IMG/VR virus record: IMGVR_UViG_3300037070_000164
Coordinates: 1-24,865 of that record
DNA: 24,865 nucleotides
Direction: 5' to 3' (one strand)
DNA from: a virus
In this document: positions 2,279-23,006 of the stretch, one piece after another
Position numbering within the stretch: the first letter of the stretch is position 1
Layout: every line of letters starts with the position of its first letter
Notes under the pieces: model-generated
Databases searched by the model: none
The model's input: only the letters and a program-made list of their open reading frames with translations
Told to the model about the DNA's origin: nothing
Position numbers and translations under genes: made by a program

Positions 2279-2653
2279 ATGGCACAGGTCAAGCGCGCGT
2301 ATGAGGTCGAGCGTGTGGACAAGCACACGCTCGTCGAACAGGTTGCACAGTTCGAGGACACTGGTGAGAAGACCAAGCTAGGTAAGCCGATCAACCGCTT
2401 CATTGGCTTCAAGACAGAGAAGCGTACTGTTGAAGACGGCTACATGGTGTACTTCCCACGTGGTCACTCGATCTATGTAGAGAACGATGATGCACTGAAG
2501 CGATTGCGTATGGAGAGTGAGGGTGGACTGATCGACATGGACACTGGTCTGCCACACATGCCGAACGCTGAGCCTGCATCACTCAAGGATGCCGTCAGTC
2601 GCGCTACACAGCCAACGCGTGGTGTGGATGATGTCATCAAGGAATTGGAGTAG
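2279..2653 (+). CDS. Small head-region protein of unknown function
   Basis: This encodes 124 residues from ATG 2279, two bases after the capsid stop. A TTG at 2273 would add two residues and overlap the capsid gene, but ATG is preferred. No strong Shine-Dalgarno precedes it, so translation probably depends on coupling to the capsid gene. The protein is charged and soluble. Its middle has a beta-like segment (YMVYFPRGHSIYVEN) and the C-terminus is helical and acidic (DDVIKELE). Genes of this size between the capsid and the adaptor are common in podovirus-like phages and are usually minor head proteins. I do not recognise a domain, and no function is claimed beyond a probable head or capsid-accessory role from position. 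Confidence 0.7.
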   Translation: MAQVKRAYEVERVDKHTLVEQVAQFEDTGEKTKLGKPINRFIGFKTEKRTVEDGYMVYFPRGHSIYVENDDALKRLRMESEGGLIDMDTGLPHMPNAEPASLKDAVSRATQPTRGVDDVIKELE

Positions 2654-2658
2654 ATACA

Positions 2659-3336
2659 ATGGTTGATCGCACCGCAGACTACTTCCCTTCGCGCATCAGT
2701 CAGTATGTACCTGACCTTGCGTATGTCGCTGATGTCACCAACAATGCACGCCAGATGCGTGTCGAATTTGGTGCACCACCGGCTATCTCTACCAACGTGT
2801 TCCAGTTCACCGCTGCTACGTCTGCACAGGTTGTAACGACCGGCCTGCCTGTGCAGATCAGTGGCCCTGGTCAGGCTGCGAAGTGGGGACGTTGCATCAC
2901 CATCGTCGGCAGCACTGCTGCTGCCAACGCACCGATCACTATCATTGGTCGTGACTATCTTGGTCAGCGCATGTCTGTTGTCATCGCTGCACTGACTGGT
3001 GTCACTGTCATCACTGGTACGAAGGCGTGGGCATGGATCGATCAGATCAATGCTGGCATCAACGCCAACGCAACTGACTTGATCACCATCGGCACGACTG
3101 ACAAGCTTGGCCTTCCGTTCGCATCTGTCATCCTCAGCGGTTCGCTGATTGATGGACTCAGTGCTACTGCATTCACATTCGTTGCACGTGACGGCACTAC
3201 TCCTGCAACTTCAGCAACCACCGATCCACGCGGCACTGTTCTGCCTGGCACCGCGACAAACGGCGTTCGCACGTACGCGGCTATCGTGCAGCTTGACACT
3301 CGCAACCTGCATGGTGTGCGCCAGTTCGCAGCCTAG
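2659..3336 (+). CDS. Putative capsid decoration/head structural protein
   Basis: This encodes 225 residues from ATG 2659, with GGAG eight bases upstream. The protein is rich in Thr, Ala, Val, Ile and Gly, with alternating beta-strand patterns throughout (ANAPITIIGRDYLGQ, VVIAALTGVTVITGT, ASVILSGSLIDGL). It has few charges and no signal peptide or membrane helix. Such all-beta composition directly after the capsid gene is typical of decoration (cement) or head-surface proteins that bind the capsid lattice and stabilise the shell. This is inference from composition and position; I see no family-defining motif. It is the last gene before the strong terminator, so it shares the highly transcribed capsid segment. 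That fits a protein needed in many copies. Confidence 0.7.
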   Translation: MVDRTADYFPSRISQYVPDLAYVADVTNNARQMRVEFGAPPAISTNVFQFTAATSAQVVTTGLPVQISGPGQAAKWGRCITIVGSTAAANAPITIIGRDYLGQRMSVVIAALTGVTVITGTKAWAWIDQINAGINANATDLITIGTTDKLGLPFASVILSGSLIDGLSATAFTFVARDGTTPATSATTDPRGTVLPGTATNGVRTYAAIVQLDTRNLHGVRQFAA

Positions 3337-3351
3337 TCGTGTGGTGACTAG
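3333..3351 (+). other. Short hairpin over the stop codon before the terminator
   Basis: CTAGTC (3333-3338) and GACTAG (3346-3351) form a 6-bp stem with a 7-nt loop; a G-U pair could extend it. It covers the TAG stop of the decoration-like gene and abuts the larger terminator stem. It may help RNA folding or protect the 3' end, but at this size it could be chance. Confidence 0.4.
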
Positions 3352-3404
3352 TGCAGCGTGTGACAGCCCGTCCCTCCTCCCCCAGTCACACGCTGCACCT
3401 TTTT
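3351..3404 (+). terminator. Strong intrinsic terminator after the capsid genes
   Basis: GTGCAGCGTGTGAC (3351-3364) is perfectly complementary to GTCACACGCTGCAC (3385-3398). The result is a 14-bp GC-rich stem with a 20-nt pyrimidine-rich loop, followed by C and five T (3400-3404). This is the classic form of a Rho-independent terminator. It sits in the only sizeable intergenic gap of the late block and ends 11 bases before the GTG of the adaptor gene. Partial readthrough would make capsid and decoration proteins more abundant than the tail proteins. An RNA-processing role for the stem is an alternative. Confidence 0.9.
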
Positions 3405-3415
3405 GTGAGTAGCCT

Positions 3416-4108
3416 GTGGAATACGCAAACTCCACACAGTTGATACAAGACGTTGTGCTGGAACTGTCACAGTTCCCAGGCAGTGGTTCGCAGTTGTATG
3501 CTGAGGACAACATACTAGCAAAGCTGCGTAGTGTGTTCAACAGTCTGTGTGGTGAAGCGTGGTGGCCGCATCTGTTGCGTTGGTCGAGTCATGAGCTTGA
3601 TGGTACGAGTGGTCGTGTGACACTAGTCACACAGTTCCCACCATCGCTACGTGACTTCGGTGACATCCGTGCTGTGCATGTAGACACGTCACAGAAGCCA
3701 CTCGCACGACTGCCTACTGACTTCAATCCATTCGGTCTCAATGGCACAACGCCACTGTATGTCGAGCCACTGCCTGCTGAAGAGGACACAGACGTAGGTA
3801 ATAAGTACCTGCTGCGTGTGTGGCCTCAACAGTCAGTCGGCACACTACGTGTGCGTGCACGCCATGTCAGTCCTGATGCGTTCAAGGACGCAGAAGTAAT
3901 CATACTGTTCGATCGATACACACTCGTCATGGGCGCGTGCATGTTGTACGCAGCTAGTGATGGTAATAATCCTGGTGAGGTGACAGCGTTCCAGGCACGC
4001 TATACAGATGCACTGACGAAGTGTCGCATCGAGATCAGCAACATGCCGACTGAGCTTGACACACGTGCACCGACAGGTGTGACGCAGTGGCAGGAGTGGC
4101 CGGTATGA
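3416..4108 (+). CDS. Head-tail adaptor (tail tubular protein A-like)
   Basis: This encodes 230 residues from GTG 3416. An in-frame TAG lies two codons upstream (3410-3412) and there is no nearby ATG, so GTG is the only reasonable start; the ribosome binding site (GTGAG) is weak. The protein has an N-terminal helix (STQLIQDVVLELSQ), a beta-rich middle with an RVWPQ element, and a C-terminal helical segment (LVMGACMLYAASDGNNP) followed by a helix of a type common in adaptors. This pattern, the size, and the position just before the nozzle gene match the T7 gp11-like tail tubular protein A family, which forms the ring joining portal to nozzle. It overlaps the nozzle gene by ATGA (4105-4108). Expression must come from terminator readthrough or from a promoter I cannot see. 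Confidence 0.75.
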   Translation: MEYANSTQLIQDVVLELSQFPGSGSQLYAEDNILAKLRSVFNSLCGEAWWPHLLRWSSHELDGTSGRVTLVTQFPPSLRDFGDIRAVHVDTSQKPLARLPTDFNPFGLNGTTPLYVEPLPAEEDTDVGNKYLLRVWPQQSVGTLRVRARHVSPDAFKDAEVIILFDRYTLVMGACMLYAASDGNNPGEVTAFQARYTDALTKCRIEISNMPTELDTRAPTGVTQWQEWPV

Positions 4109-5970: not shown

Positions 5971-5973
5971 CAC

Positions 5974-6141
5974 ATGGCTAGTGCAATTGATGCAACCAAG
6001 CCTGCTGATAACGTGCAGGTGGCGAAGTCAGAGCTTCGTGCGAACTTCCTGACTGCAAAGAACGAGATCACTGCACTGCAAGCAGCAACTAGCTTTGCAC
6101 GTTCGCTTGCATTCAATGGACTGGGACGACCAAAGAACTGA
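5974..6141 (+). CDS. Small tail-region protein (55 aa)
   Basis: ATG 5974 begins three bases after the nozzle stop, with AGGCGG just upstream, and the frame runs to TGA 6139-6141. The 55 residues have the form IDATKPADNVQ...SELRANFLTAKNEITALQ, a pattern I recognise from many short phage proteins encoded beside fibre genes (start with SAIDATKP, then a helix with LR.NF...K.EI..L). The helix could trimerise. The function is unknown; a small structural or fibre-attachment role is likely from context. The last residues (GLGRPKN) are basic. It is in frame with good spacing on both sides and is clearly not a shadow of another gene. Confidence 0.75.
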   Translation: MASAIDATKPADNVQVAKSELRANFLTAKNEITALQAATSFARSLAFNGLGRPKN

Positions 6142-6149
6142 GGTGCGAC

Positions 6150-18300: not shown

Positions 18301-19149
18301 ATCAATGCACTGCTTGGTCTTGTCAATCAGCAATCAAACATTCCTGGTCGTGGCAACTCGATGATCGGTGTGTCACCACTACGTGGTGGTGGTGCTGTGC
18401 TTGGTGAGCCTGATGTGATACAGGGCATGCCACCGGATGCTACTGGTCCACAGAGACTGATGTACAGCACGATGCTGAATAGCATTGTGACGACACTGAC
18501 GACTGTAGCTGGTCAGACGGCAATGGACAGTGCGCGTGCGTTTGAACAAGCATCACGCTCGACTGGTGGCACTGGCACACCGTGGCGTGACGCAGCATCA
18601 GTGATCACATCACAGCCACAACGACAACTGACGATGTTCGGTGTCACTGATATATGGGGTCAGTCGCGTCGTGTAGGTACACAGAACCAGGACGGCATTG
18701 AGTTGTCACGTGCACAGGACGACTTGCAACGCATACAGCGTGAGTTCAACGAGAACATCCCCAATCAGGGACGCGCAGGTGGTCGTCGTGGTGGCATGCC
18801 AGATGCCAACTTGGCACAGGTCAGTGGTGCACGTGACCTGCACATGGGCGGCCTCATGGCACGCGCTGCTGACTTCTCACGCAGTATATCGCAGCACGAT
18901 CTGCGACGACTTGGCCTGCTGCGTGATCAACTGAGTGGCACTGTCGCCAGTCCATCGTACACTCCACGTGAGCATGCAGAGCGTCGTGCTGACATCAACA
19001 GACAGATCATGGAGCAGCAGCGCGAGACGATGCAGCGCATACGCAGCTTTGAAGAAGCACAGTCGCGCTACTACGGTCGTCGCATACGACTGAGTGACAT
19101 CACACGCACAGGACGTGTCAGCGACTTACCTCTACTGCCGACTCAGTAA
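15382..19149 (+). CDS. Large internal virion/ejection-type protein (1255 aa)
   Basis: Start GTG 15382, with GGAG a few bases upstream; a second GTG at 15385 is possible. The N-terminal 250 residues are Ala/Pro/Gly-rich and carry GFFDV at residue 3 and GGFFDV at 201 and 236. A hydrophobic segment lies at about 257-275, then long helical regions. Around residues 780-930 there is a block with KGWAMYRDTLDMIRSG, RMSAELTG and a second hydrophobic segment near GMGTALGVGLPAIAMV, which reminds me of the large polyvalent-protein domains of ejected phage proteins. It is the last and largest gene of the late block, as expected for a protein that is packaged and injected with the genome. No lytic transglycosylase motif or catalytic triad was found, so any enzyme role is open. 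Confidence 0.72.
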   Translation: MVGFFDVEQTAAAPTPAASDAPAGLNNVWRRLAAGVASIPTAPLGLYGLASEGNRLLTGQPFAGGDTANRWNQQYNQAVHSGLGIGEAQTLGDRALEIGGSFAVGPASAALRAPALIRGALSTVGGLPQTVRGAAIGTGLVTGASEALHSLQAPAQQTQATLDGGQAATAPPGTAQATIPAPVPNVPSSTITQTVTQQGAGGFFDVPGAAAPAQAGVPSQVITAPPGAAPAARPSGGFFDVNATTSPPPPPPSSPMDWALPAVGAAALAALAIRYGRAAPAAALRTSITGLNAPAEVATPWHVRQLGYHVDQAAPAAHAVRTVNPSAYTDVRNMINDSQPQATAIRQMHAWSEGWMDGHRLSEIPKTWVDDYTRMTPAQQAATEQLRIMEHEIGNLAAGRAPNLHANPVTNQPWASTNILGGATPGRVIRELTRETAALRSDPIVNQMVNRGQALQQSFNQYAFRQGLINAAELAELQTTRRGFTALIQETAQPNMLKRLLELTSTGQVQRELIDLSTMLKQQGAEVGTKFLPSPQATEQMLRTLMTSAAHNRARIGIIDNVMLAQPGTRYANVITAVPRSGQDTISVLRNGKAMNYQVTDASLRTSMRVVPDHADVIMGVIDRTRQISQATATGVGNPAFPIVSNTWNGMVAALTRPSGTRVGLFQGDVVGGAIEAQIGAARGIGAMAARNMSQTLERSIRTNGFLAQALTPQMTQHLANRLARTWQNSTLHAMQELGATGVGRMSADTHIPNRHTLMDSMNPEYVSRVPSLSKGWAMYRDTLDMIRSGSNIQFFARNRGRVGDVTAARMSAELTGNASVRGSSQLSRGAGKAIPFGNVAVQEFAAMGRAARENPLGFGMGTALGVGLPAIAMVEAGRRLGGPESEDYFDYTFRRMSPEEQARYFVIPIPGMRPEDMPHISIPNSMRVGWAMARDGYAALTGATPEATLERGISNTLRGGALTAQPISTPPIINALLGLVNQQSNIPGRGNSMIGVSPLRGGGAVLGEPDVIQGMPPDATGPQRLMYSTMLNSIVTTLTTVAGQTAMDSARAFEQASRSTGGTGTPWRDAASVITSQPQRQLTMFGVTDIWGQSRRVGTQNQDGIELSRAQDDLQRIQREFNENIPNQGRAGGRRGGMPDANLAQVSGARDLHMGGLMARAADFSRSISQHDLRRLGLLRDQLSGTVASPSYTPREHAERRADINRQIMEQQRETMQRIRSFEEAQSRYYGRRIRLSDITRTGRVSDLPLLPTQ
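15388..16104 (+). repeat. Three GFFDV repeats separated by low-complexity linkers
   Basis: GFFDV is encoded at 15388-15402, GGFFDV at 15982-15999 and GGFFDV at 16087-16104. Each is followed by Ala/Pro-rich sequence; the third precedes six Pro and a hydrophobic helix. DNA of the three is similar but not identical (TTCTTTGATGTA, TTCTTCGATGTG, TTCTTTGATGTC), so the repeat is kept at protein level. Confidence 0.8.
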
Positions 19150-20591: not shown

Positions 20592-23006
20592 TCACAACTC
20601 CATTGGTATGAGATCACTCCAGCGACGCATCTCTCTGTCACCAGGCACCCACTTCACTTCACATGGTATGATGAGTGAGTCACCACGTATGTACAATGGC
20701 TTCTCTGCGTAGTGCTTCATGATCGCAGCGACACGCTTGGCGTCATCGATCTTGCACAGTGCTGTGTTGCTGTCATGCACGTTCAGTCTGATCTTGGCGT
20801 GCGTCGGCCACGCACTGTCTTCGTGGCACTGGTAGATGACTTGGGTGTTTTTGTCTCCAATGGTGGACTGGGGCTTGAAGGCGACGATTGCTTCAAGCTG
20901 TTCGTCATCTTGTAACCGCTCCATGAGACGCCAGACCCGTCCGAATGGAGTAACCAGTTTCCGTTCACGACGGACTGTGGCTTCCAAGTCGGACCACCAG
21001 CGTCGCAACTCCGGTGTGATAGAGTGATACAGATTGTAAGCTCGCACGGCGTCGTCGTAGGGGAGACCAGTGACTTCTGCAAGACGGTCTGGACCCATGC
21101 GGTAATTGAGGCCATGTCTACAGCGTTTAGCGATATACCTTTGCGTGTAGTTTCCATCGATGAAGTCCTTTGTTGGCACGTCATCATACGGTATCTTGAA
21201 CATCTCACTTGCTAGTGCACGATGACAGTCGTACTTGCCATCACGTCGTGCCTGCTCGAACTGCTGCTTCCACTTGATGATGTTCGCATCCCATGCAACG
21301 AAGCGTGCTTCTGCTTGTGACAGATCGTAGTACACGAACGTGTAGCCAGGATCAGCAATGTACATCTCACGTGCCTTGGGTGGCACGTTCTGCATGTTCA
21401 AGCCACTGTGCCACATGTTCTGTGCACTAGACAGACGACCTGGTGCTGACTGTGTGCCGAACTGTTTGTACTCTGTGCGTGCGCGACCGTCAGGATCAGT
21501 GCGACTGCTCACGCTGACGCTGTAGAACTTGTGTTCCTTCTTGTAAGCAGCCAACGCCAGTATGACGTTCTTGTCTTCGAGTCGCGTACGTGGGTGCGCA
21601 AGTATGTGCTTGCGGTTAACATCCGCTGTAGAATGGCCCCGTCCAGTGAGCTTAAGGCGACGGAACAGAAGATCAGATATCTGAGGCGCGCTACGTGGAT
21701 TTGGGTATAGCGTGGTGTCGCCTGTCGCTTCATGCACGGCAGCCACAAACTTCTGTTCGAGTTCATCGACAAGCGCTGCATAGTAGGTGTCGAACTCCTG
21801 CTTCCGTTTGGCATCGACTAGCACTCCACACACTGTCATGTCAGTCAGGTGTCGCTGTGCACGCATGACATGATTGAAGAACAACTGATCGAGGTGTTGT
21901 TGCTTGAGTTCGACAAGCAACTTCTCACTACATGCTAGTGTGATACAACAGTCCTTGACGTTGTAGATCCAGAAGTCCTCGATGCGTCCGTCTGACTTCT
22001 CGCGCCACTCGGTGCGTTCGCCTTTGTAGTACGGATGTGTGGTGTACTGTGCAGTCAGGAAGCCAAGGTCGTGAGGCGCACTTGGGTAGAGTAGATGATG
22101 CGCGAGTAGGGTGTCGAACCATACGTGGTGAACAGCAAGTCTGTCTTTATAAGCAAGCCAGTAGCTGTCGAAGTTACCGTTTTGAGCCACGAGGCGTGTG
22201 TCACCATCTCCAAGAAGTCGTTGAATAGCACGGCGAACGCGTCGCTCGTCTGTGATCGCATACCGATTTCTGTGAGCGTCACGAAAGTTAATGCACATCC
22301 CTTCATACGGACTGTTCGCCATTCCGATGCAAGCAGTTTCACCGGCAGTGGTTTCAATATCGAACGCAACAGGCTTTCGTTCATCAGCCATGCGTCCACA
22401 CCATAGCACAGCTTCATCTGGGGACGGGTCGATGTGAGGAACGATTGTGTGCTCACGCCAGGTACCTCTCATCACCATGTCGAGCTTTGTGAGATCGAGT
22501 AGGAACCACGCTTCCATGCTTGGTGTTCGCATGATGTGTGCTGGGTTGTTCGTTATCACGTAGTAGCGGTCGTCCACAGTTAGCACAGAACCGCGCCAGT
22601 TGTCCACTCCACTTCGCCCACTGAGCGCTTCTAGTGCGACATTGCCGAGTACGAGCACATACTTTACGTTTCGTAGACATGACAACTCCCACTTCACCAG
22701 TCCTTGCCAGTGTGCGAGTTCGTTCGGTGGTATCTGCTCCTTGCCTTTGACACTAGCGAGTTGTCTCTTGACCACATTGGTGATGTAACACTGTCTGCGA
22801 GTAATGCCGAAGCGTCGTAAACTATTCCACAAATAGTTGCCGCTCCCACCAACGAGGGGGAGACGCATCCGCACCTCCTGCTCACCTGGGGCTTCTGCCA
22901 CAATAGCGAGCTTTGCATCCACATCACCATCACCATACACCTGTATCTGCAATCCAATGGGTGCTGCACGTGCAGCGAACTCCCTCTGCATCTCACCTAT
23001 GTTCAT
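20592..23006 (-). CDS. UDG-fold / 3'-5' exonuclease / family A DNA polymerase fusion
   Basis: This encodes 804 residues from ATG 23006-23004, with GGGAGG seven bases upstream (23019-23014) and an ATGA overlap with the upstream stop. Residues 33-178 look like a family-4-type uracil-DNA glycosylase fold: VAEAPGEQE (36-44), LVGGSGNYLW (51-60), CYITNVVK (73-80), VLGNVALEAL, and NNPAHIMR (153-160) where the usual HPA loop is expected. The exonuclease has FDIET (D216/E218), QNGNFD (N276/D280) and YNVKD (Y348/D352), so proofreading looks intact. Polymerase motif A is YDLSQAEAR (D561), motif B is RYIAKRCRHGLNYRMG (R623, K627, Y635) and motif C is VHDS (H744, D745). It is the replicative polymerase of the phage. 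The His of the UDG loop and the N-terminal Cys of an Fe-S cluster are absent, so glycosylase activity is doubtful. Confidence 0.9.
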   Translation of the reverse strand: MNIGEMQREFAARAAPIGLQIQVYGDGDVDAKLAIVAEAPGEQEVRMRLPLVGGSGNYLWNSLRRFGITRRQCYITNVVKRQLASVKGKEQIPPNELAHWQGLVKWELSCLRNVKYVLVLGNVALEALSGRSGVDNWRGSVLTVDDRYYVITNNPAHIMRTPSMEAWFLLDLTKLDMVMRGTWREHTIVPHIDPSPDEAVLWCGRMADERKPVAFDIETTAGETACIGMANSPYEGMCINFRDAHRNRYAITDERRVRRAIQRLLGDGDTRLVAQNGNFDSYWLAYKDRLAVHHVWFDTLLAHHLLYPSAPHDLGFLTAQYTTHPYYKGERTEWREKSDGRIEDFWIYNVKDCCITLACSEKLLVELKQQHLDQLFFNHVMRAQRHLTDMTVCGVLVDAKRKQEFDTYYAALVDELEQKFVAAVHEATGDTTLYPNPRSAPQISDLLFRRLKLTGRGHSTADVNRKHILAHPRTRLEDKNVILALAAYKKEHKFYSVSVSSRTDPDGRARTEYKQFGTQSAPGRLSSAQNMWHSGLNMQNVPPKAREMYIADPGYTFVYYDLSQAEARFVAWDANIIKWKQQFEQARRDGKYDCHRALASEMFKIPYDDVPTKDFIDGNYTQRYIAKRCRHGLNYRMGPDRLAEVTGLPYDDAVRAYNLYHSITPELRRWWSDLEATVRRERKLVTPFGRVWRLMERLQDDEQLEAIVAFKPQSTIGDKNTQVIYQCHEDSAWPTHAKIRLNVHDSNTALCKIDDAKRVAAIMKHYAEKPLYIRGDSLIIPCEVKWVPGDREMRRWSDLIPMEL

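Follow-up and report, generated by a model that had tools for sequence, protein, structure and literature searches.

In our preferred reading, to which we assign a probability of roughly 60%, the hairpin behind the capsid genes of this virus would be an element of the sense RNA at the capsid block's 3' end and not primarily a terminator. Its loop would act, in many related phages, as a module of the anti-Shine-Dalgarno (anti-SD) type through which the putative scaffold gene and the gene that follows the major capsid protein (MCP) gene are translated less, relative to the MCP. The sequences themselves establish the hairpin, the sense strand, the covariation of loop and sites, and the identity of the matched starts. 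In more general terms, a large family of uncultivated tailed phages probably encodes a matched SD/anti-SD pair, in which the scaffold and post-MCP starts would carry a private tag and the loop would be its exact antisense; both genes would be turned down after passage of the polymerase, the MCP would be spared, and loop and tag would drift together.

The window, by which we mean the whole stretch of DNA that was analyzed, is a virus record of 24,865 bases and probably a fragment. Its late block runs from the putative scaffold gene through the MCP gene, a 124-aa gene, and P0001 to a 79-nt gap that contains the hairpin, followed by the gene at the adaptor position (Table 1). The names scaffold and adaptor are positional. 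Pfam and PHROG searches gave no reliable match for the post-MCP gene, P0001, or P0002, and fold searches at E 0.001 gave none for the post-MCP gene or P0001. The scaffold gene has AAGGAG as its SD sequence (177-182), and the start of the post-MCP gene adjoins the MCP stop.

Table 1. Head-gene and hairpin features of the window, with coordinates, strand, and basis of assignment.
Feature	Position	Strand	Basis
Putative scaffold gene P0003	189..1277	+	Place before MCP; coiled-coil Pfam matches under cut-off; relatives
Major capsid gene P0004	1290..2276	+	phrog_9953, E 6.1e-49
Post-MCP gene, 124 aa, function unassigned; start matched by the loop in related lineages, not here	2279..2653	+	Loop-start comparison
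P0001, last gene of the capsid block, function unassigned	2659..3336	+	Beta-rich model, moderate confidence
Hairpin 5' arm	3351..3364	+	Complement of 3385-3398 without mismatch; fold; inverted-repeat scan
Terminal loop, 20 nt, pyrimidine-rich, predicted mostly single-stranded	3365..3384	+	Fold and pairing probabilities
CCTCCTCCC in the loop, same as the anti-SD seed reported for alpha-r14/NfeR1 sRNAs	3373..3381	+	Sequence; motif from the available parts of PMC10746234 and PMC3927594
Hairpin 3' arm	3385..3398	+	Sequence; fold
C + T5 tract (C 3399, T5 3400-3404)	3399..3404	+	Sequence; T runs of 5 in 2/90 hairpins
P0002, first gene on the tail side; GTG start, weak SD	3416..4108	+	'Adaptor' from position; without family match

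The hairpin in the window is real. An earlier note on this DNA had described a perfect 14-bp stem with a U-run ending 11 bases before the GTG at 3416, and sequence and fold confirm this description: the arm at 3351-3364 (GTGCAGCGTGTGAC) pairs with 3385-3398 at all 14 of 14 positions, and 11 bases separate the end of the T5 tract from the GTG. The RNA folds with -28.4 kcal/mol (z -2.2), and with flanks of 100, 200, or 400 nt, the mean pairing probability of the stem was 0.99 and the mean unpaired probability of loop positions 3373-3381 was 0.96. Throughout the window, no other perfect inverted repeat of at least 14 bp with a spacer of 3-30 was found, and only 2 of 200 dinucleotide shuffles of the window contained any such repeat. 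The terminator scan was silent on this hairpin because it admitted loops of 3-8 only. The gap had also been described as the only sizeable one in the late block, which holds, by eye and from the open reading frame lists, if the 55-aa reading frame at 5974-6141 is a gene; if it is not, the interval 5971-6149, which this frame fills, exceeds the 79 nt of the hairpin gap and becomes the largest one in this stretch of the block. Further downstream, at 19118-19149, the 3' ends of a late plus-strand gene and a convergent minus-strand replication gene overlap, with no terminator-like site listed there.

Relatives were collected by MCP searches of IMG/VR, with the best 80 matches per search and the requirement of a readable gap between a P0001-like and an adaptor-like gene. 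Removal of L081-L083 and of six loci with long gaps and repeats left 98 distinct gap regions, including L001, which carries the window's own hairpin. A strong hairpin (score of at least 22) was present in 90 of the 98. Seven regions that had shrunk to 11-39 nt (L095, L105, L108, L118, L124, L160, and L161) contained no strong hairpin, and the gap of L080 contained a weak one. In L124, a hairpin is present just inside the next gene, and in L109 and L110, which are among the 90, the best-scoring hairpin begins within the P0001-like gene, about 20 nt before its end. Many contigs have an MCP of about 67-70% identity together with an adaptor-like protein that is just about 23-37% identical.

The stem sequences vary by lineage. 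For the comparison, loci were divided into a low-GC and a high-GC set at 0.495, a boundary that was set after the data had been seen. In the low-GC alignment, which comprises 30 of 38 hairpins, both sides had changed at all 16 pairs, and covariation was 0.613, compared to 0.247 after shuffling and at most 0.235 when slid. Among 82 distinct stems, G-U pairs outnumbered A-C oppositions by 72 to 8 (p 5e-14). This excess of G-U indicates that the structure was selected as late-strand, i.e., sense, RNA, and an antisense RNA or a DNA cruciform is thereby ruled out. Five of the loci read contain an inserted gene (L006, L009, L020, L180, and L185), and in these a hairpin begins 7-108 nt past the P0001-like stop. 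As it was kept near this stop despite the insertion, the hairpin goes with the capsid 3' end. L009 has an extra hairpin ahead of its adaptor-like gene.

A covariance model built from the low-GC hairpins was run on 43 sources and gave 8 matches at E 1 or less, none of them in the window or in the high-GC loci included. The stem and loop sequences of this model are those of the low-GC set, and since it misses the window, what links the window hairpin to the set is its position and form, not the model. No Rfam family was matched, either at gathering scores in 14 loci or at E 5 in the window. In phage-collection records, in which the MCP is 23-28% identical at most, hairpins directly after the capsid gene or the next gene had, by eye, no comparable loop. 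One CTCCC-bearing loop was seen in L086, inside a later gene.

The earlier note had proposed a terminator that causes a step down in transcription between the capsid and the tail genes. Of this proposal, a real element at the capsid/tail boundary remains, situated where T7 has its terminator Tphi, and staying with the capsid 3' end in the five insertion loci; a plain terminator is not supported. A partial intrinsic terminator that resembles Tphi and lowers transcription between capsid and tail genes is in our view unlikely, even though the window combines a 14-bp stem with U5, the place between the capsid gene and the adaptor-position gene is equivalent to that of Tphi between gene 10 and gene 11, and several distant phages have terminator-like hairpins 3' of their capsid genes. 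In LUZ100, the available part of the report describes an apparent strong terminator directly downstream of the MCP gene (PMC10134795). Against such a terminator, the U-run is not conserved, as only 8 of 90 hairpins have a T-run of at least 4 in the 12 nt next to the stem, and 2 of 90 have one of 5. In addition, the d'Aubenton-Carafa score was positive for Tphi (+14) and four other phage hairpins, on which it was checked, but above zero in 0/90 and below zero in 90/90 of the hairpins of the set; the -21.9 of the window hairpin is lowered partly by the long loop. The related hairpins also differ from Tphi in their long pyrimidine-rich loop, and a terminator leaves the complementarity of the loop to head-gene starts, described below, unexplained. 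A single-subunit RNA polymerase (PF00940) was matched in 0 of 16 records, with a positive T7 control; this point is weakened by the fragmentary window, by the possible incompleteness of the other records, and by the fact that host RNA polymerase terminates too. With unconserved T-runs and negative scores, we rejected a plain terminator as the family-wide function. The hairpin may well set the expression of capsid genes apart from that of tail genes, and some transcripts could end at the U5 of the window itself. Hairpins 3' of capsid genes should not be taken for terminators by default.

An mRNA 3' stabilizer or RNase processing hairpin, which would guard the capsid mRNA and set the capsid/tail stoichiometry with an incidental loop, is improbable as the whole explanation. 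It would fit the position at the capsid 3' end in the five insertion loci, the finding that the hairpin is the strongest of its own locus in 72 of 90 cases, and stems that are richer in GC than their loci (mean 0.67 vs 0.48), but it does not predict conserved loops or covariation between loop and sites. Such a stabilizing function may act alongside the antisense role, and it may be all that remains in the window lineage and the high-GC set.

Anti-SD-like 5-mers occurred in 48 of 74 junction loops of at least 8 nt; among the loops of other hairpins in these loci, the count was 11 of 545. Related loci are not independent in these counts. A duplex-energy scan of 19 loci suggested that low-GC loops match the start of the post-MCP gene. 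The longest perfect loop match at the locus's own post-MCP start was at least 7 bp in 39 of 41 low-GC loci, compared to 54 of 1,640 control windows. When own loops were compared with permuted loops in this set, z was 9.3 at the post-MCP start (the same 39/41) and 6.3 at the putative scaffold start (28/36 with at least 7 bp), whereas the starts of the MCP gene (z -1.9, 0/41), P0001 (z 1.2, 2/41), and the adaptor-position gene (z -0.1, 1/41) gave no significant signal. Over 54 bins covering 2.7 kb around the MCP gene, z exceeded 3 only at the post-MCP start, the scaffold start, and the first part of the scaffold gene. For the third place, inside the scaffold gene, z was 4.1; this match falls within coding sequence and may reflect protein conservation. 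The complementarity in many relatives is mostly 7-11 bp, perfect, and located at SD or start regions, which in 13 loci lie about 3.0-3.4 kb (scaffold) and about 1.0-1.5 kb (post-MCP gene) upstream of the loop. In the 43.9-kb record G001, the late strand carries AAGGGGA three times, at the post-MCP start, at the scaffold start, and in the scaffold gene; the opposite strand has two copies, of which one is the loop. Since the total in G001 did not exceed that of the control pattern (3), it is the location of the copies that counts and not how many there are.

In variant lineages, changes occurred on both the loop and the site side, and complementarity was kept. Compensatory variants of this kind are L166 (UCAUCUCCUUC/GAAGGAGAUGA, 11 bp, three sites), L069 (10 bp, and 6 at the scaffold start), L169 (9 and 11 bp), and L067 (9 and 7 bp). 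Control of the adaptor-position start was rejected, as the loop match there was not significant and the hairpin stays at the capsid end in the five insertion loci. With respect to this start, the codon lies a median of 10 nt past the hairpin in low-GC loci (e.g., L196:7391-7436, L060, L015, and L040), and where GC was below 0.47, just 8 of 38 loci had an SD match of at least 4 at this start, compared to 38/38 for the MCP gene; initiation at the adaptor position may need hairpin opening or coupling. In low-GC loci such as L060 (6268-6325), an outer helix under the main stem (such as AAUAG/CUAUU) overlaps with the end of the P0001-like gene; 73% of the cells of this helix pair.

Further scans yielded 38 distinct loci outside the first set. 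Ten of these were unreadable (four without a P0001-like match, four without a stop, and two with too short a region), and L219, L223, L224, L243, L244, L249, L262, and L271 failed the filter for hairpin score or loop length; in L244 and L262, the hairpin is strong, with a loop of 6 nt and no match. Of the 20 remaining loci, 17 had at least 7 bp at one of the two starts, and L218, L233, and L277 had no such match at either. The post-MCP start was matched in 15/20 (permutation z 7.9; 13/16 with distinct loops only) and the scaffold start in 12/19 (z 6.8; 11/15 with distinct loops only). Both starts were matched in L216, where the loop UCUUCUCC faces GGAGAAGA, and in L220, where UCCUCUC faces GAGAGGA, and further pairs reached 11 and 10 bp in L222 and 8 and 8 bp in L227. 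That the repeated motif (such as AAGGGGAUG) is a DNA or RNA site at the head genes to which a protein binds, the loop carrying it in inverted form, would account for several copies co-evolving within one genome, but is very improbable, as the sites in the new loci end 0-9 nt 5' of the nearest ATG, with one overlapping it, the inverted copy sits in the open loop of a sense-RNA hairpin, and the variants reach 10-11 bp of complementarity.

For the anti-SD module, we propose that the single-stranded loop would pair with the start regions of the scaffold and post-MCP genes. As the matched sequence lies at the SD or the start codon, this pairing would be expected to reduce initiation of both genes relative to the MCP gene, which has its own SD in 38/38 low-GC loci and would be spared. 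The loop could act in cis or through a released 3' fragment. Because it is transcribed only after these genes, its effect would set in once RNA polymerase is past the head genes and would amount to a delayed negative feedback.

The proportion of scaffold to coat protein in phages is an old question. Post-transcriptional control of the scaffold is represented by scaffold autoregulation in P22, and long-range pairing at a start site by the long-distance (Min Jou) pairing of MS2. If our reading is correct, a loop that co-evolves with the scaffold and head-gene starts would be a direct answer at the RNA level, and it would point to RNA autoregulation as a common way in which environmental phages control assembly stoichiometry. 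Among the open-access PMC matches listed, judged by title or the start of the abstract and with most matching papers outside that view, none described an anti-SD hairpin in a phage capsid operon. By analogy, the putative capsid-operon antisense hairpins are close in logic to OppZ/CarZ of Vibrio cholerae, where, in the available part of the report, an RNA derived from the operon's 3' end inhibits translation by base-pairing with the transcript it comes from (PMC7398697). Complementarity to translation starts of the same operon is seen here in many relatives, with only 4-5 bp in the window. Unlike in that account of OppZ/CarZ, the element described here lies in a phage head operon, is followed by more genes, and has one loop for two start sites, and its processing and its repression are putative.

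In the window's own lineage, the hairpin has the same position and a generic anti-SD loop, and we infer its candidate antisense role from these features. The window loop matches the scaffold start with 5 bp and the post-MCP start with 4 bp, and the distinct loci L001-L004 had 4-5 bp at both starts, no preference for own over swapped loops, and no loop partner of 8 bp or more. Matches of 7 bp exist in this lineage, e.g., shortly after the next tail gene begins, and in L002 a 6-bp match lies just ahead of the MCP stop. Across 28 starts, alternatives included, the best duplex of the window loop (-19.4 kcal/mol; control 1% quantile -20.2) was found at the DNA polymerase start, and 5 of 28 duplexes lay under the 5% quantile of the control; such a slight excess would be expected of any anti-SD loop. 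This best partner, which is within chance, is a family A DNA polymerase gene on the minus strand (20592-23006) with GGGAGG 5' of its start. A further scan for close relatives of the window gave no new lineage. Unbiased scans of the high-GC set gave no partner; the highest z was 2.6 in a scan of 78 bins and 3.0 in one of 44. The high-GC scaffold start taken alone gave p 0.006 by run length, with the window lineage included, but p 0.054 by energy, and L126/L131 and L053 (8 bp at the scaffold start) are exceptions.

The window loop contains CCUCCUCCC (3373-3381), which is, according to the available parts of the reports, the seed of the alpha-r14/NfeR1 sRNAs (PMC10746234, PMC3927594). The AbcR1/2 seeds, again from the available text, are CUCCUCCC and UUCCCCUC (PMC8844928). 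With alpha-r14/NfeR1 as described there, the window hairpin shares this seed, single-stranded in a hairpin loop on a variable stem, and with AbcR1/2 a single-stranded anti-SD seed. The alpha-r14/NfeR1 RNAs, however, are described as free sRNAs with three hairpins, whereas a single hairpin lies inside a phage operon here, and unlike both groups of sRNAs, the seed in related phage lineages tracks the phage's own start sites. Exact CCUCCUCCC was present in 2 of 83 distinct hairpins (that of the window, L001, and L002), CCTCCCC occurs once in the window, on the sense strand, and a fixed partner GGGGAGG was discarded as it is not conserved. Genome scans confirmed no relative that would link the phage to Alphaproteobacteria, the host group of alpha-r14/NfeR1.

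Finally, we placed the pairing states on an MCP tree of 110 loci (FastTree), which is weakly resolved, with 21 of 102 inner branches starred. Pairing of 7 bp was present in 59 of the 110 loci, and 51 had no 7 bp at either start. The two states required 8 changes on the tree, so that paired and unpaired loci do not form two clean clades. The paired sequences, grouped by script into 12 classes, required 12 changes, the floor being 11.
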